A stretch of DNA of 64,000 nt from contig JAHDVH010000005.1 in the NCBI GenBank assembly GCA_023382385.1, positions 1-64,000 of the forward strand. The letters are read 5' to 3'. Shown piece by piece: positions 49,955 to 55,850 of this stretch (position 1 is its first letter; each line of letters starts with the position of its first letter). Below the pieces are notes generated by a model. It saw nothing but the letters and a program-made list of their open reading frames with translations. It had not been told where the DNA came from and made no database searches. The translations under genes were made by a program, and so were the position numbers. This stretch comes from a bacterium (GTDB lineage Bacteria > Electryoneota > RPQS01).

Positions 49955-51001
49955 ATGACCCCCAACATTCTTCGCACCGCCCACGCCGAATTCCGCGTCA
50001 CCGATCTTGAGCGCGCCAAAACTTTCTACGTTGACGCCCTCGGCTTCTCGATCCTGCATCAGGATTCCGAACGGCTCTACTTAGGCAACATCGAGGAGCG
50101 CGACCCCTACTCACTGGTCTTGCGCAAATCCGCGCAGCCCGGCCTTGGGCATCTGGCCTTCAAAGTCGAGCGCGAAAGTGATCTCGACGGCCTCGCGTGG
50201 ATCGCCGGTGAAGACGGCCTCGCCCACAAGTGGCTCGAAAAGGGCGCGAAATACAAAATGGGCCGCACGCTGGTCATGCAGGACCCGCACGGCATACCGC
50301 TGCATTTTTATTTCGAGGCCGAGCGCCGCGACTGGAGCCTGCAAAAGTATTACGAACATCGCGGCGCGCGCATTCAGCGCATTGATCACTTCAATTGTCA
50401 GGTGCACGACGTGCGCCGCGCCTACGAGTGGTATACAAAGCGCTTGGGCTTTCATTGCAGCGAATACACCGCCGCCAATGACACCCCGCGCATTCCCGGT
50501 GAATATTCTCCCGGTAATCCAAGCTTCAGTTGGCGCTGCGTCGAAACGGATGATTTGTGGGCCACGTGGCTGCACAGAAAACCCAATGTGCACGACATCG
50601 CCATGATGAACGGCATCGGCCCGCGTCTGCATCACGTCGGCTTCTGGGCCTATGATAGATTATCCATTCTCGATGCCTGCGACGTCTTGGCCAGCATGGG
50701 CATGGTGGATCACATCGAGCGCGGTCCGGGCCGTCACGGCCTGTCGAATGCGTTCTTTCTCTATTTGCGCGACCACGACAACAACCGCATTGAAATCTAC
50801 ACCGGCGACTATCTGCTGACCGACTGGGATGTCCCGCCCGTGCGCTGGAGCATCAATGACAAGCGCCGCGCCACCTTCTGGGGCCACTGGCCTCCCAAGT
50901 CATGGTTCGACGAAGCAAGTTTAGTCGAAGACATCGTCACCGGCGACCTGATGCCCGTCAGCGACCCCAAGTTCTTTGGGCGTCCAACGTTTGTTGTGTA
51001 A
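49955..51001 (+). CDS. hpaD: 3,4-dihydroxyphenylacetate 2,3-dioxygenase
   Basis: 348 residues from the ATG at 49955. Two vicinal-oxygen-chelate modules: the N-terminal one (RTAHAEFRVTDLERAKTFYV) is structural; the second (RIQRIDHFNCQVHDVRRAYEWY) carries the metal ligands His (DHFN), His (RLHHVGFWAYD) and Glu (NRIEIYTGDY), as in the HPCD/MndD enzymes. It cleaves homoprotocatechuate next to the diol with Fe(II) or Mn(II), feeding HpaE. The repeat-bearing gap upstream separates it from the desaturase gene, so it may have its own promoter. Confidence 0.93.
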   Translation: MTPNILRTAHAEFRVTDLERAKTFYVDALGFSILHQDSERLYLGNIEERDPYSLVLRKSAQPGLGHLAFKVERESDLDGLAWIAGEDGLAHKWLEKGAKYKMGRTLVMQDPHGIPLHFYFEAERRDWSLQKYYEHRGARIQRIDHFNCQVHDVRRAYEWYTKRLGFHCSEYTAANDTPRIPGEYSPGNPSFSWRCVETDDLWATWLHRKPNVHDIAMMNGIGPRLHHVGFWAYDRLSILDACDVLASMGMVDHIERGPGRHGLSNAFFLYLRDHDNNRIEIYTGDYLLTDWDVPPVRWSINDKRRATFWGHWPPKSWFDEASLVEDIVTGDLMPVSDPKFFGRPTFVV

Positions 51002-51008
51002 GAGAACA

Positions 51009-52478
51009 TTGTCGAATTCCAATATCGAAAACGGCCGAAGTAGCCAGATTCTGTGGTTCATTATTACCGCACTAATCGGCGGACTAATCGGTTTTCTTTT
51101 GAACAGTTCTTGGCGATATTTTGAATATTCATGGGCTGAAGTTCGAGTAGATCTAAAGCAGCTGCTTGTCTACAGATTTCAAGGTGAAGACGCAGGAAGA
51201 CTTCGCATTGTCGTCAGTTTACAAAATCCATCGGGCGAGGGTATTGCAATTCGATATGATAGTCTACTCCTTTGCAATGCTAGGGCAATGCTCCGACTGG
51301 AAGGAGAGATTCCCTTTCGCTACATTCCTCCGCGCACATCGATTTCTGATACTATAGATGCTTACTTCCAAAGCGCAACAGTGCTTCTGAAAATTCCGCA
51401 TTCAGAAAGGACATCGAACCAAGAGCTTTTTGTGGCAAAGGTTGGTCGGAAACAACAGTTCGTCTCGAGAGTCGGAGACAAAGATCTTGGAAAGTGCACC
51501 TACTGGCAGACGCCAATCCTAACATCTGAAACGGAAGCAAAAGAATTGAATTTGGCATTGTACCGAATACAGCTAAATTCTTATCTTTCAGCGCAGAGTG
51601 GTGATGCACTCCTTGCTATTCTCAGTGATTCACTGTATATCAATCCGTACAATCTCGTTGATGTAAAGAAAAGGGAGCCTCCAAACGGACAGAAGGTAGA
51701 CCTCCCAAGCCCTCAAAGTAATTTTGTTCCACTTGAATTGTCAGGAGCGGGTGACTTCAGAAGACGGTATGGAGGTGTCTATGTCGCCGATATTCCTGGC
51801 GGGGTGATAAATACTGAAGCGATTGATTCCGTTCTTGGTGCGTTAACGCCAGAGAAAGAATTTCGACTCATTGGTGGCGTAACAGGCATTGATCTAACAA
51901 CCGTATCTGAGTTTGTGTTTTTTTCGTATGGGTCTGTCGAGTCACAGTCCCCTTATTGGACGTTTGAAGCAAACAGCATGTATGAAGTGTTCATTTCGTA
52001 CCCTGTGGATAGTAAACCGTCATTTCATCAAATCGAACTAAGTAACTCTCTTGCCGATCTCGGGTTCAAAGGAGACTGGGTTGCAGATTCAAACTTTAGC
52101 TACATGTTTGGTTTATTAGCGGCCCTTTCCCCTCAAGTGACAAAGAGGTTGATGCAGAATTGGCTAGACACAAATAGAGAGATTATCAACAATGTCGTAA
52201 AAAACGATGGTATCCTTTCAGTTTGGCCGGGGAGCTACAATTCGAGATCTGATTCATCCATAAAGGCGGCCGCGAATAGAATCTTCCCCGATAGTCCATA
52301 TCAAAGCCTTCGGATAGATGCAGGCCCATGGAGTGACAAATGGTCAAACTACTATGGACGACAACCAATTTTCATTTTCATGAGATTCCCCGACAAATTC
52401 ATGAAAACACCCATTACGAAATTAGAGTTAGTTGAGAAGAATGGCGAGTTTATTGTTGTAAGAACGATTGACGATTAG
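51009..52478 (+). CDS. Membrane-anchored hypothetical protein, AT-rich
   Basis: 489 residues from a TTG at 51009, 7 nt behind hpaD. One N-terminal membrane helix (ILWFIITALIGGLIGFLL) is followed by a large soluble part without recognised domains. Sequence features include LRIVVSLQNPSGEGIAIRYD, which looks like a beta-sandwich, and GGVTGIDLTTVSEFVFFSYG. Codon use is AT-rich, unlike hpaD directly before it, which suggests import together with the next gene. Function unknown. Confidence 0.65.
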   Translation: MSNSNIENGRSSQILWFIITALIGGLIGFLLNSSWRYFEYSWAEVRVDLKQLLVYRFQGEDAGRLRIVVSLQNPSGEGIAIRYDSLLLCNARAMLRLEGEIPFRYIPPRTSISDTIDAYFQSATVLLKIPHSERTSNQELFVAKVGRKQQFVSRVGDKDLGKCTYWQTPILTSETEAKELNLALYRIQLNSYLSAQSGDALLAILSDSLYINPYNLVDVKKREPPNGQKVDLPSPQSNFVPLELSGAGDFRRRYGGVYVADIPGGVINTEAIDSVLGALTPEKEFRLIGGVTGIDLTTVSEFVFFSYGSVESQSPYWTFEANSMYEVFISYPVDSKPSFHQIELSNSLADLGFKGDWVADSNFSYMFGLLAALSPQVTKRLMQNWLDTNREIINNVVKNDGILSVWPGSYNSRSDSSIKAAANRIFPDSPYQSLRIDAGPWSDKWSNYYGRQPIFIFMRFPDKFMKTPITKLELVEKNGEFIVVRTIDD

Positions 52479-52539
52479 CTACATTTGTGGCGGCAGTGCT
52501 TCGGATTCCCCTTACGAACAGCTCCGAGAAAAGCAACCC

Positions 52540-53094
52540 ATGGCAGACATCCCTGACCAAAGACTTAATGCAATGAACCTGATATGGGTATTCGTCTTTG
52601 TGGCAGTAACCCTAGTTTCAGGGCAGGTCACAAGTCCGCAAATCTCAAGTGAGGAACGAATCATTTATCAAATATTCAACGTCCTCCCAGTAATACCCAT
52701 TTCGCCGAACGCCGCAGTTGAAGTAACAAGGTTTGATTCGACACGGCTGCTCGGTTACGCGAGATTGCAGGTGCAAGCCGCCAACCGAAAAATAGAAATC
52801 TTGAACGACATTGATTTACCGACTACTTCTTCACTAATACATCCTCTTGAAGGCGCCAAGGCAGAATGGGAAGTTGTGGTAGATCGTTTTGAGAAAGCAG
52901 AAGGTGTAAGGCTGGCAGCTCGGGCTGCACTTATTGAGAAAGAGAGAAAGCTAAACGAAAGAGAGCTGTACTATCTGCAGCAGGAACTCAATATCGCTAA
53001 GCTTCGCCTTCTCGGTGCGAACGATAAGGCCGACCGCCTTGAGCTAGACCTACGGCATCAGCAACTTACAGATCCGATATTGAAAAATAGATAA
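52540..53094 (+). CDS. Hypothetical protein with membrane helix and coiled coil
   Basis: 184 residues from the ATG at 52540; the frame is open from a TTG at 52468 that overlaps the previous stop. A hydrophobic segment near the N-terminus (NLIWVFVFVAVTLVSG) may be a signal anchor. The second half is strongly helical and charged (LAARAALIEKERKLNERELY, LLGANDKADRLELDLRHQQL), a likely coiled coil. It shares the AT-rich composition of its upstream neighbour, and both may form one imported unit. Confidence 0.6.
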   Translation: MADIPDQRLNAMNLIWVFVFVAVTLVSGQVTSPQISSEERIIYQIFNVLPVIPISPNAAVEVTRFDSTRLLGYARLQVQAANRKIEILNDIDLPTTSSLIHPLEGAKAEWEVVVDRFEKAEGVRLAARAALIEKERKLNERELYYLQQELNIAKLRLLGANDKADRLELDLRHQQLTDPILKNR

Positions 53095-53150: not shown

Positions 53151-53414
53151 TTGCCCACCATCCCTGGCAAAAAGTTTGCAGAATTAATACTTTACATCTC
53201 CGACCGCTCGGAGCTGGATCCGTATTTCAAAGGTTATCAGTTGTTTACTTCCTCGGGAACCAACCCATCTGCCCAAGCGTTCAATAATTGTCCCCTCAGC
53301 CAGCCGCGTCGCCAACACGACCTACATCTCCATGTCCCGCAAGCGCTTACGCCAAAACACCCCGTTACTCCTCTCGAGTTGATGAACAAATGCACAACTA
53401 CCTGTTTATATTAA
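53151..53414 (+). pseudogene. Truncated gene, possibly 5' end of a Panacea (DUF4065) protein
   Basis: A TTG at 53151 follows a good AAAGGAGC. The first 25 residues (MPTIPGKKFAELILYISDRS followed by ELDPYF) resemble the start of Panacea-domain proteins, which are antitoxin-like and found in toxin-antitoxin and mobile loci. The sequence then loses this character (PRRQHDLHLHVPQALTPKHP). No other frame restores the expected KLNK region, so this looks like a remnant joined to unrelated DNA. Confidence 0.4.
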
Positions 53415-53425
53415 CCACATAGAAC

Positions 53426-53454
53426 TTGACAAATTCCTAAATATGTGCTATATT
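53426..53454 (+). promoter_or_regulatory. Consensus sigma-70-type promoter before a gene-less region
   Basis: A perfect TTGACA at 53426-53431 and TATATT at 53449-53454, 17 bp apart. No gene follows for 1.15 kb. Confidence 0.75.
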
Positions 53455-53460
53455 AAGCAC

Positions 53461-54245
53461 ATCCTGCCCGCCCCGCCATCCCGTCCCCAATATCATCGTG
53501 TTAGGACCGCAAACAACCCCCGTTTGAACAAGGCCCAGTAGCTCCGACCGGGTGAATCAGGCCCCCCACGATCAAACAGCCGGAGAGTTTCCTCTCCGCA
53601 CCCCCGAGTCACCACTCCGTCAGGAGTTCAAGACTCCTTTCCCCCTAATCCCAAAATCTTAAACCGTGCACAAATCTCAGAACATGCAAGCCATGCACAG
53701 CATTCCGTGCAAAACTCAAAAACTAACACGATGATAATACTTAGCTAAACACCACAAACGGTAGTGGCACAGCCGTTGCCTAATAGACAATTGAATGGCA
53801 TAGTCCGTTCACCCGGGTCCCATGCCCGGATTGATCTGACTCGGACACTTTCCCTGCGCGGCACCAATGGGTAGATGTCCACCCCAATTTGAGAAAGGCA
53901 GTCGGGCCTCACGAAGACCCTCGTCATTCGCGCGGTTTTCTTCCCAGTCTCCCTGCTTCATTGTGACGACGCTTCTTCCTCCTTGGCTTTGTGGTTCGGG
54001 CCTCGTGAGGCCCTCCTTTCTCGCACTGGTAGAAACTTCGGACGCTTTCCAAAGGCTCGGATTCAGTTACCGAGGGCTTGGCACGGTTTCTTCGCTCCTG
54101 CTTGCGGCCCCTGCACGGCTCACTCAGACTTCCTTCACGGTTCTCGGTGACTGAATCTGGTCCTTGGAAGGACAAATGATTGCGCAAACAACGCAATCAA
54201 GCCGAAAAACTACAAACACCGCCCTCGCAGCGGTGTTTTTTGTTG
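53461..54245 (+). ncRNA. Candidate large structured non-coding RNA
   Basis: About 785 nt between a consensus promoter and an intrinsic terminator, with no convincing gene on either strand. Two long-range helices stand out. Domain 1: 53891-53898 with 54015-54022 (8 bp) stacked on 53904-53914 with 54003-54013 (11 bp), enclosing TCGTCA/TGACGA at 53921/53964. Domain 2: 54058-54074 with 54143-54159 (17 bp, two G-U), extended outward by 54045-54055 with 54162-54171. Local hairpins lie at 53581-53598, 53622-53638, 53813-53829 and 54178-54198. The hairpin at 53622, followed by TTT, may end a shorter first transcript, so this could be two RNAs. I see no RNase P, tmRNA, 6S or SRP signature. Confidence 0.6.
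54215..54237 (+). terminator. Intrinsic terminator of the candidate RNA
   Basis: AACACCGC and GCGGTGTT pair over 8 bp around a 7-nt loop; six T follow from 54236. Confidence 0.85.
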
Positions 54246-54321
54246 GATTGAAGTCTTGTAAATATTTTTAGAATAATAGTTTATGTGCTCATGGAAGATT
54301 GGCAGGCGAGTACGATTTGAG

Positions 54322-54350
54322 TTGACAATCCGTATAGTGATCGGTATATT
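54322..54350 (+). promoter_or_regulatory. Promoter of icd
   Basis: A perfect TTGACA at 54322-54327 and TATATT at 54345-54350 with a 17-bp spacer. The transcript would start near 54357, about 250 nt before the icd start. Confidence 0.75.
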
Positions 54351-54356
54351 ATGAAA

Positions 54357-54608
54357 ACATTTGTGGCCTGATGATGTGGAAAGGGTGCTTTCGTCCACGC
54401 ATCGTCAGTCTCGATGTTGAATCGCATGCCTCCTTAATAGGATTTCGGCCAACCGGAATTCTATCGAACCTTATCAATCCCCTCCGCGTGCGGAAGCCGA
54501 CCGGGGTCTCCGCGCTGGACATCCTGCCTTACTGAGAGACGAACAACTTGGCATTGGACCTCACGTACCCGCGCATCTTGCGTTCCCGACAGATACGAGG
54601 AAAGAGCA
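54357..54608 (+). promoter_or_regulatory. Structured 5' leader of icd
   Basis: No gene is evident in this 250-nt leader. It begins with a long hairpin at 54368-54408: nine pairs CTGATGATG with CATCGTCAG (one G-T), then GTGGA with TCCAC, then AAG with CTT around GGTG. Smaller hairpins follow (for example CCGC with GCGG near 54488). A regulatory function is possible; it matches no riboswitch I know. Confidence 0.45.
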
Positions 54609-55850
54609 TTGTACGATAAATTAACTCCCCCGACGACCGGTGAGAAGATTACGGTCGCGGAGGGTCGGCTCGTCGTTCCCGACCATCCAGTCATTCCATT
54701 CATAGAAGGTGACGGCACCGGCCCGGATATTTGGCGCGCATCGCAGCGCGTGTTTGACGCCGCAGTGGAGAAAGCTTACGGCGGCAAGAAGAAAGTTGTC
54801 TGGTTTGAAGTGTATGCCGGCGAAAAGTCGCTGAAGGTTTACGGCGAAAACGTCTGGCTGCCGGAAGACACGCTGACGGCGATCAAGGAATACATCGTCG
54901 CGATAAAAGGGCCGTTGACCACGCCGGTGGGCGGCGGGATTCGTTCTTTGAACGTGACGCTCAGGCAGGTGCTTGACCTTTACGCCTGCGTTCGCCCGGT
55001 GAGATGGTTTGAAGGGGTCCCCGCTCCTGTAAAGGAGCCGGGGAAACTCGACGTGGTCATTTTCCGCGAGAACACCGAAGACGTATACTCGGGAATCGAA
55101 TGGAAGGCCGGCTCGGCGGAAGCAGCTCGTCTGATTGAGTTTGTCAAGGGGATGGGCAAAACCATTCGTCACGATTCCGGTGTGGGAATCAAGCCGATTT
55201 CCAAGTATGGCAGCGAGCGCATCGTGCGCAAGGCCATTCAATACGCCATCGACCGTGGATTAAAGACTGTGACGCTTGTCCACAAGGGCAACATCATGAA
55301 GTTCACCGAGGGAGCGTTCCGTGAATGGGGCTACGAGCTTGCCGCGAGAGAGTTTGCGGACAAGGTGGTCACGGAGAAGGACCTTTGGGAGAAGCACGAC
55401 GGCAAGCTGCCGGCAGGCAAGATTCTCCTGAATGACCGGATCGCCGATGCGATGTTCCAGCAGCTGCTGCTCAGGCCTGACGAATACGAAGTCATCGTAA
55501 CACCGAATTTGAACGGGGACTACCTCAGCGACGCCTGCGCCGCACAGGTGGGCGGACTTGGGCTTGCGCCGGGCGGCAACATCAGCGATGCCTATGCGGT
55601 GTTTGAAGCGACGCACGGCACGGCGCCGAAGTATGCGGACAAGGATGTCATCAATCCCGGATCGGTGATTCTGTCGGGCGTGATGATGTTTGAGTATCTG
55701 AAGTGGGACGAAGCGGCTAAGCTGATTGTGAAGGGTCTTGAGGGAGCGATTGGCAAGAAGCGCGTGACCTACGACCTTGAACGGCAGATGGCCGGTGCGA
55801 CGAAACTGAAGACTTCGGAATTCGCGAGCGAGATTATCGCGAACATGTAG
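54609..55850 (+). CDS. icd: NADP-type isocitrate dehydrogenase
   Basis: 413 residues from a TTG at 54609 behind GAGGAAAGAG. Motifs: [38 protein letters not shown] (substrate loop with the Ser that is phosphorylated in E. coli and the Arg residues), [16 protein letters not shown] (Tyr), [15 protein letters not shown] (Lys), [19 protein letters not shown] (Asp metal ligand) and [19 protein letters not shown] (NADP adenine site). It oxidises isocitrate to 2-oxoglutarate in the citric acid cycle. The gene stands alone. Confidence 0.95.

Follow-up and report, generated by a model that had tools for sequence, protein, structure and literature searches.

Locus and extent of the RNA gene

The window, the whole 64,000-nt stretch of DNA that was analyzed, contains a predicted non-coding RNA of about 450 nt at 53790..54241 on the + strand, upstream of icd, the gene for isocitrate dehydrogenase (54609..55850, +; PF00180, E 2.6e-89). 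This RNA, here called icd-upstream RNA, is homologous and syntenic in 11/11 genomes of the family, and a structured RNA gene at this locus is well supported. Its start was placed from promoter spacing and its 3' end coincides with an intrinsic terminator, CACCGCCC...GCGGTGTTTTTT (54217..54241, +). The terminator recurs as CACCG-loop-CGGTGTTT in 11/11 RNAs, a count that, like those for the promoter and for the block GCGCGGCAC described below, is partly a selection rule, because the 11 RNAs of the full alignment were picked by regular expressions for these three elements; the three sites were first seen in unselected upstream sequences. RNA lengths from start to terminator of 373-509 nt were predicted across the 11 family loci. 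The RNA is presumably transcribed from this locus, and G-U pairs, promoter and terminator point to the + strand as the RNA strand.

A first-pass annotation of this DNA had proposed an undescribed large structured RNA of about 785 nt, driven by a TTGACA-N17-TATATT promoter at 53427-53455 and ended by the terminator at 54217-54241. The RNA itself was borne out by its occurrence in 11/11 family genomes, by covariation in both long helices and by the lack of an Rfam match, and the terminator is present. The extent was too large, the conserved transcript covering only about 53790 to 54241, where the terminator ends it. The promoter sequence exists as described, but it was found upstream at 1/11 homologous loci and was rejected as driver and start of the RNA. 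When homologous loci were compared, the stretch 53460-53660 had no counterpart in relatives and little upstream of about 53660 was common to them; the conserved block opens at TGGCACAGCCGTTGCC and closes at the terminator. Since the conserved gene starts at a sigma-54 promoter (53765-53779), the RNA measures about 450 nt and not 785. The annotation had correctly set tmRNA aside: neither tRNA nor tmRNA was found within the window, and both identities were rejected.

Sigma-54 promoter and probable activator site

Based on the sigma-54 consensus, a promoter of sequence TGGCAC-N5-TTGC (-24/-12) was identified at 53765..53779 (+). TGGCAY-N4-RTTG[CT] is found at the RNA start in 10/11 loci, the exception being G002 with TGGCCT. 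Both the DNA-binding and the core-binding domains of sigma-54 (rpoN) were detected in the same 9/11 family genomes and were missed in G004 (56% complete) and G002 (97% complete). Of the near-complete genomes only G002 is without rpoN domains, and no other genome has a broken -24 element, a coincidence in favor of the mode of action proposed below; either sigma-54 has been lost or the assembly has a gap. The RNA core is kept in this 97% complete genome with no sigma-54 domains detected, which makes it a natural test. More generally the promoter offers a direct handle on the RNA, as it predicts the time of synthesis and the kind of regulator to seek.

A probable enhancer (activator) site of the TGCA-N5-TGC type lies at 53685..53696 (+), at -80 from the -24 element. 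YGCA-N5-TGC is present in 11/11 loci, at -69/-70 in eight and at -80 in three, two positions that differ by about one helical turn, and TGCA-N16-YGCA-N5-TGC at exactly -89 is common to six genomes. The genome of the window has 23 occurrences of the pattern TGGCAYNNNNNTTGC and 7 of the reversed pattern. Such sigma-54-like sites precede rpoN itself (checked by domain search) and, from translations read by eye, FlgF- and FlgB-like (flagellar rod), pilin-like and enhancer-binding-protein genes. YGCA-N5-TGC accompanies 1/23 of these sites, namely the RNA's own, and a separate activator dedicated to this promoter is therefore likely. By sequence, a sigma-54 promoter with an enhancer site is a trait shared with CrcZ-type RNAs. 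CrcZ and CrcY (Pseudomonas, Azotobacter), which are under sigma-54 control (CbrB-RpoN), resemble the icd-upstream RNA in being long, sigma-54-controlled and furnished with repeated short motifs.

Predicted fold and covariation

The 456-nt RNA was predicted to fold with -169.4 kcal/mol, as against -145.4 +/- 5.9 for shuffled sequences (z -4.1; 0/100 shuffles as stable). A short hairpin, P1 (CCCGGG...CCCGG; 53812..53829, +), is part of the minimum free energy (MFE) fold and takes the form CCCGG...CCGG in the 11-sequence alignment. It is followed by hairpin P2 (53843..53881, +), drawn from the same alignment, whose loop at 53856-53864 is GCGCGGCAC, the sole 9-nt block identical in 11/11 RNAs; covariation in the core extends to helices 1 and 2. 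The strands of core helix H3 (53891..53914 and 54003..54022, both +) are supported by covariation in helices 3 and 4. Inside H3 is arm a (53920..53970, +), in which TCGTCA pairs with TGACGA, as indicated by the fold and by helix 5 (73.5% of cells paired). An exposed C/U-rich tract, CTTCTTCCTCCTT, is located at 53972..53986 (+), its CTCCT having an unpaired probability of 0.83. The 3' hairpin (54045..54171, +) is a helix of 27-28 bp with GCACGG-type motifs at 54081, 54113 and 54136 and covaries in five genomes. These five have it in the form seen in the window, and the other six have a different sequence there. Kissing between the P2 loop and arm a was considered and rejected: 7-9 bp can be drawn in 9/11 genomes with energies no better than those of shuffled arms (p 0.13-0.78).

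The two long helices reported in the first-pass annotation are both present in the MFE fold, and a covariation check on homologous regions gave compensatory double changes in each. The annotation's 19-bp helix is represented in the core alignment by helices 3 and 4, where 9/18 pairs are doubly changed. Across the 7 sequences and 36 pairs of the core, 87.9% of cells are paired and both sides have changed in 21 pairs; for the 3' hairpin (5 sequences, 39 pairs) the values are 93.2% and 9 pairs. These counts lean towards the structures of the covariance models R2 (core) and R1 (3' hairpin), because most of the sequences in the counts had also been used to derive the structures. The R2 structure was hand-drawn on 5/7 sequences of the core alignment (A10) and the R1 structure computed on 4/5 sequences of the 3'-hairpin alignment (A9); the model builds did not include G004 (in A9 and A10) or G006 (in A10). 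A10 took 7/11 sequences, leaving out G008 (an insertion misaligns) and G000, G001 and G005 (low scores). The covariation score was 0.459 for the core and 0.282 for the 3' hairpin; neither was reached by any of 500 shuffles, and sliding gave at best 0.154 and 0.131, respectively.

In the 3' hairpin there are 32 cells with G-U and 2 with A-C, and in the core 19 and 13, respectively, an excess that favors the + strand. The G-U excess in the 3' hairpin also bears on whether there is an RNA gene here at all, the alternatives being an element conserved as DNA, a remnant in decay, or an mRNA that encodes a small protein. A 95-codon ORF does span the region in the window, and G002 combines undetected rpoN with a poor P2, so that the gene may be decaying there. 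However, conserved blocks contain indels whose lengths are not divisible by three, neither the frame nor the length of the longest open stretches is constant among genomes, and promoter, terminator and structure are conserved together, which with the G-U excess leaves such readings highly improbable.

The invariant P2 loop might also serve a homodimerizing or scaffold RNA by pairing with itself through UGCGCG or CGCGCG. By eye, a self-complementary six-mer (terminal U-G counted) is found in 11/11 P2 loops, nine with UGCGCG and two with CGCGCG, and OLE, ROOL and GOLLD are reported to form homo-oligomers (PMC12286853). Such a six-mer is nevertheless not rare by chance (about 5% counting G-U, by our estimate), and the invariance of the loop yields no covariation; this function is considered very unlikely.

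Database searches and distribution

Rfam 15 gave no match at or above the gathering score in the window (best sub-threshold E 0.48; a further best sub-threshold match, E 0.093, was located outside the RNA), so this is no known Rfam RNA and the Rfam families were rejected as its identity. No description of it was found in Rfam or in a literature search of open-access papers, and no paper on the lineage was among the matches listed. The family-restricted icd-upstream RNA is a new RNA family of a general kind already known, and it adds a covariation-backed family without an Rfam 15 match, in an uncultured lineage.

The first-pass annotation had placed its size in the range of the OLE, ROOL and GOLLD RNAs. 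Those RNAs are larger, and about 450 nt falls below the sizes usually quoted for them. Covariance models of all three are present in Rfam, and none matched the icd-upstream RNA in the Rfam search. They are large conserved structured bacterial RNAs whose role is unclear (PMC12286853); the icd-upstream RNA differs from them in being restricted to one family, fixed upstream of icd and under sigma-54.

DNA from 53420-54250 was used as query against 61 genomes. Strong matches were confined to close relatives, namely G001 (78% identity over query 346-827), G006 (77% over 500-734) and G005 (76% over 644-735), and all others were short. Among 39 genomes of the phylum R1 matched G000, G001, G004, G005 and G006. 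R2 matched G002, G003, G004 and G006-G010, the same eight being recovered in a search of 386 genomes. R2 alone therefore covers 8/11 family genomes at E <= 0.001; G000, G001 and G005 were assigned by R1 and synteny, and the window RNA scores just 17 bits with R2. The gene icd was found in 11/11 family genomes, with the RNA directly upstream on the same strand in each. Among genomes of other families, icd was present in 8/9 examined and the promoter and RNA motifs were upstream of it in 0/8. A strict DNA pattern run over a genome-contig collection gave 38 stretches, of which five were confirmed by R2, all in records matching family genomes; the remaining 33 were taken as chance. As far as models R1 and R2 see, the RNA appears to be confined to a single family. 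Phage and plasmid collections contained no match to the window RNA, the RNA pattern had 0 matches among viral contigs, and a phage or plasmid origin was rejected. The association with imported genes suggested by the annotation did not hold, as the RNA has the same position before icd in every family genome and is not tied to imported DNA.

Relation to icd

A separate sigma-70-type icd promoter is located at 54322..54350 (+), and TTGAC[AT]-N17-TAT[AC]TT follows the terminator in 11/11 loci. The icd leader after this promoter is long (54351-54608, about 250 nt in the window) and contains G+C-rich hairpin-like stretches, as do its homologues. When pairing of the RNA with icd leaders was computed, the cognate leader was not preferred (mean -161 vs -163), in a test that is weak because the program linked pairs into chains along the entire length; on that basis such pairing was rejected.

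The constant position immediately before icd, in the same orientation in 11/11 genomes, is a feature for which pure trans action gives no explanation. It would suit a cis-acting icd leader or attenuator, with sigma-54 transcripts reading through the terminator or not, or interfering with the icd promoter. The icd and icd-II motifs, structured RNAs upstream of icd in Proteobacteria (PMC8632094), offer a precedent. Those are short riboswitch candidates, with the ribosome-binding site of icd-II in its P1; the icd-upstream RNA, unlike them, is bounded by a promoter and a terminator of its own, and icd is separately promoted. Compared by description, it is not an icd/icd-II leader containing the icd ribosome-binding site, since its structure stops far short of the icd start and excludes that site. 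The terminator and separate icd promoter in 11/11 loci and the lack of preference for the cognate leader (weak test) also argue against attenuation, which we regard as unlikely and rank third.

Sequence motifs and host proteins

Two short motifs recur in the RNAs. CTCCT is present in 30 copies in the 11 RNAs as compared with 8.9 in dinucleotide shuffles, and GCACGG in 17 as compared with 1.6 (0/300 shuffles reach either count), enrichments that are inflated because the genomes are related. The longer CACGGTT numbers 15 against 0.37 (0/300 reach 15). The mean unpaired probability of CTCCT is 0.69, with 0.37 overall and 0.53 for permuted letters (non-CTCCT C/U-rich words, which are fairly open); CCTCC is not exposed (0.35). 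CACGG is no more open than its permuted letters (0.34 vs 0.35). The position of the C/U tract differs between two sequence groups.

The Hfq domain PF17209 was detected in 0/11 family genomes (5/14 controls positive) and the CsrA domain PF02599 in 0/11 (controls positive), which, as far as detected, argues against a decoy of either protein. GGA motifs were not enriched in the RNAs (71 vs 81 expected), and with CsrA domains in 0/11 a Csr-type GGA decoy (CsrB/RsmZ) was rejected. That the family's genomes show neither domain bears on the working of regulatory RNAs in this lineage.

CrcZ is a decoy RNA (PMC4063720) that titrates Hfq, and the icd-upstream RNA could in a similar manner be a sponge whose recurring GCACGGUU/GGCAC motifs titrate an RNA-binding protein other than Hfq. 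The GCACGG and CACGGTT counts would agree with this, as would the fact that its place in the structure differs between the two sequence groups for the motif, and the five CACGGTT copies of the G008 RNA, four of them spaced 24-26 nt. In that RNA (L032, 473-951, -) the four lie in a private insertion and the fifth further on. Against a sponge stand the counts of 0/11 for Hfq and CsrA domains, CACGG being no more open than permuted letters, the lack of GCACGG in G007 and the inflation of motif counts by shared descent. The icd-upstream RNA further differs from CrcZ/CrcY in that Hfq was not detected in 11/11 of its genomes, in its motifs (GCACGG and CUCCU, not A-rich), in lacking an Rfam match and in its neighbor genes. 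Titration of another protein is ranked second and is doubtful.

Proposed mode of action

Because CTCCT is mostly unpaired and CACGG is not, an anti-Shine-Dalgarno reading is ranked first: an independently terminated, trans-acting sigma-54 RNA that masks ribosome-binding sites. We give it a probability of about 0.4. The model for it is RNAIII of Staphylococcus aureus, a highly structured RNA of about 500 nt whose C-rich unpaired tracts mask Shine-Dalgarno sequences, Hfq not being needed (PMC2837412). Exposed C/U-rich tracts (CTCCT enriched, mean unpaired 0.69) are found here as in RNAIII. The likeness is in working only, as promoter type and phylum differ, and the icd-upstream RNA lacks an Rfam match and encodes no known peptide.

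The mode of action that we infer would begin with a dedicated enhancer-binding protein at the TGCA sites, which would switch on sigma-54 RNA polymerase. Transcription would yield a free-standing RNA of about 370-510 nt ending at its own terminator and folding into P1, P2 with its invariant loop, the long core helix closing a branched domain, and the 3' hairpin. Acting in trans, its exposed CUCCU tracts may pair with Shine-Dalgarno regions of target mRNAs and so block their translation without Hfq. Several observations count against this reading: use of Shine-Dalgarno sequences looks modest in the window (11/37 long ORFs vs 26/294 internal ATGs), other C/U-rich words are fairly open too, CCTCC is not exposed, the C/U tract lies at different positions in the two sequence groups, the synteny with icd is constant, and G002 retains the RNA with no sigma-54 detected. 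A more elaborate proposal is a new class of sigma-54-controlled large ornate RNA, in which the P2 loop forms a self-kissing dimer, GCACGGUU arrays recruit an RNA-binding protein, and the enhancer-switched particle regulates many mRNAs in a lineage with no detectable Hfq or CsrA; this we hold to be improbable.

Surrounding DNA

A perfect 14-nt inverted repeat, TATCATCGTGTTAG / CTAACACGATGATA (53491-53504 / 53723-53736, 218 nt between the arms), brackets the non-conserved region and the activator sites. At 53427-53640 hairpins near 53580 and 53622 and a short run of T come after the perfect TTGACA-N17-TATATT, an arrangement that may produce a short transcript of its own, confined to this genome. 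A local minimum of cumulative GC skew, the lowest point sampled in the 189-kb contig, falls at about 54000-55000 (RNA/icd); with no DnaA-box cluster at RNA/icd, its reading as a replication origin was unsupported.

Two adjacent low-G+C ORFs (about 0.44; 50976-53094) without a Pfam match lie between a dioxygenase-type gene and the RNA and were possibly imported. The stretch 53151-53414 looks like what is left of a broken gene whose intact form is present in G001 (L010:9196-9720, -), the shared protein start having been recognized by eye. The intact gene of G001 matches the SocA-like Panacea antitoxin domain (PF13274, E 1.5e-16).
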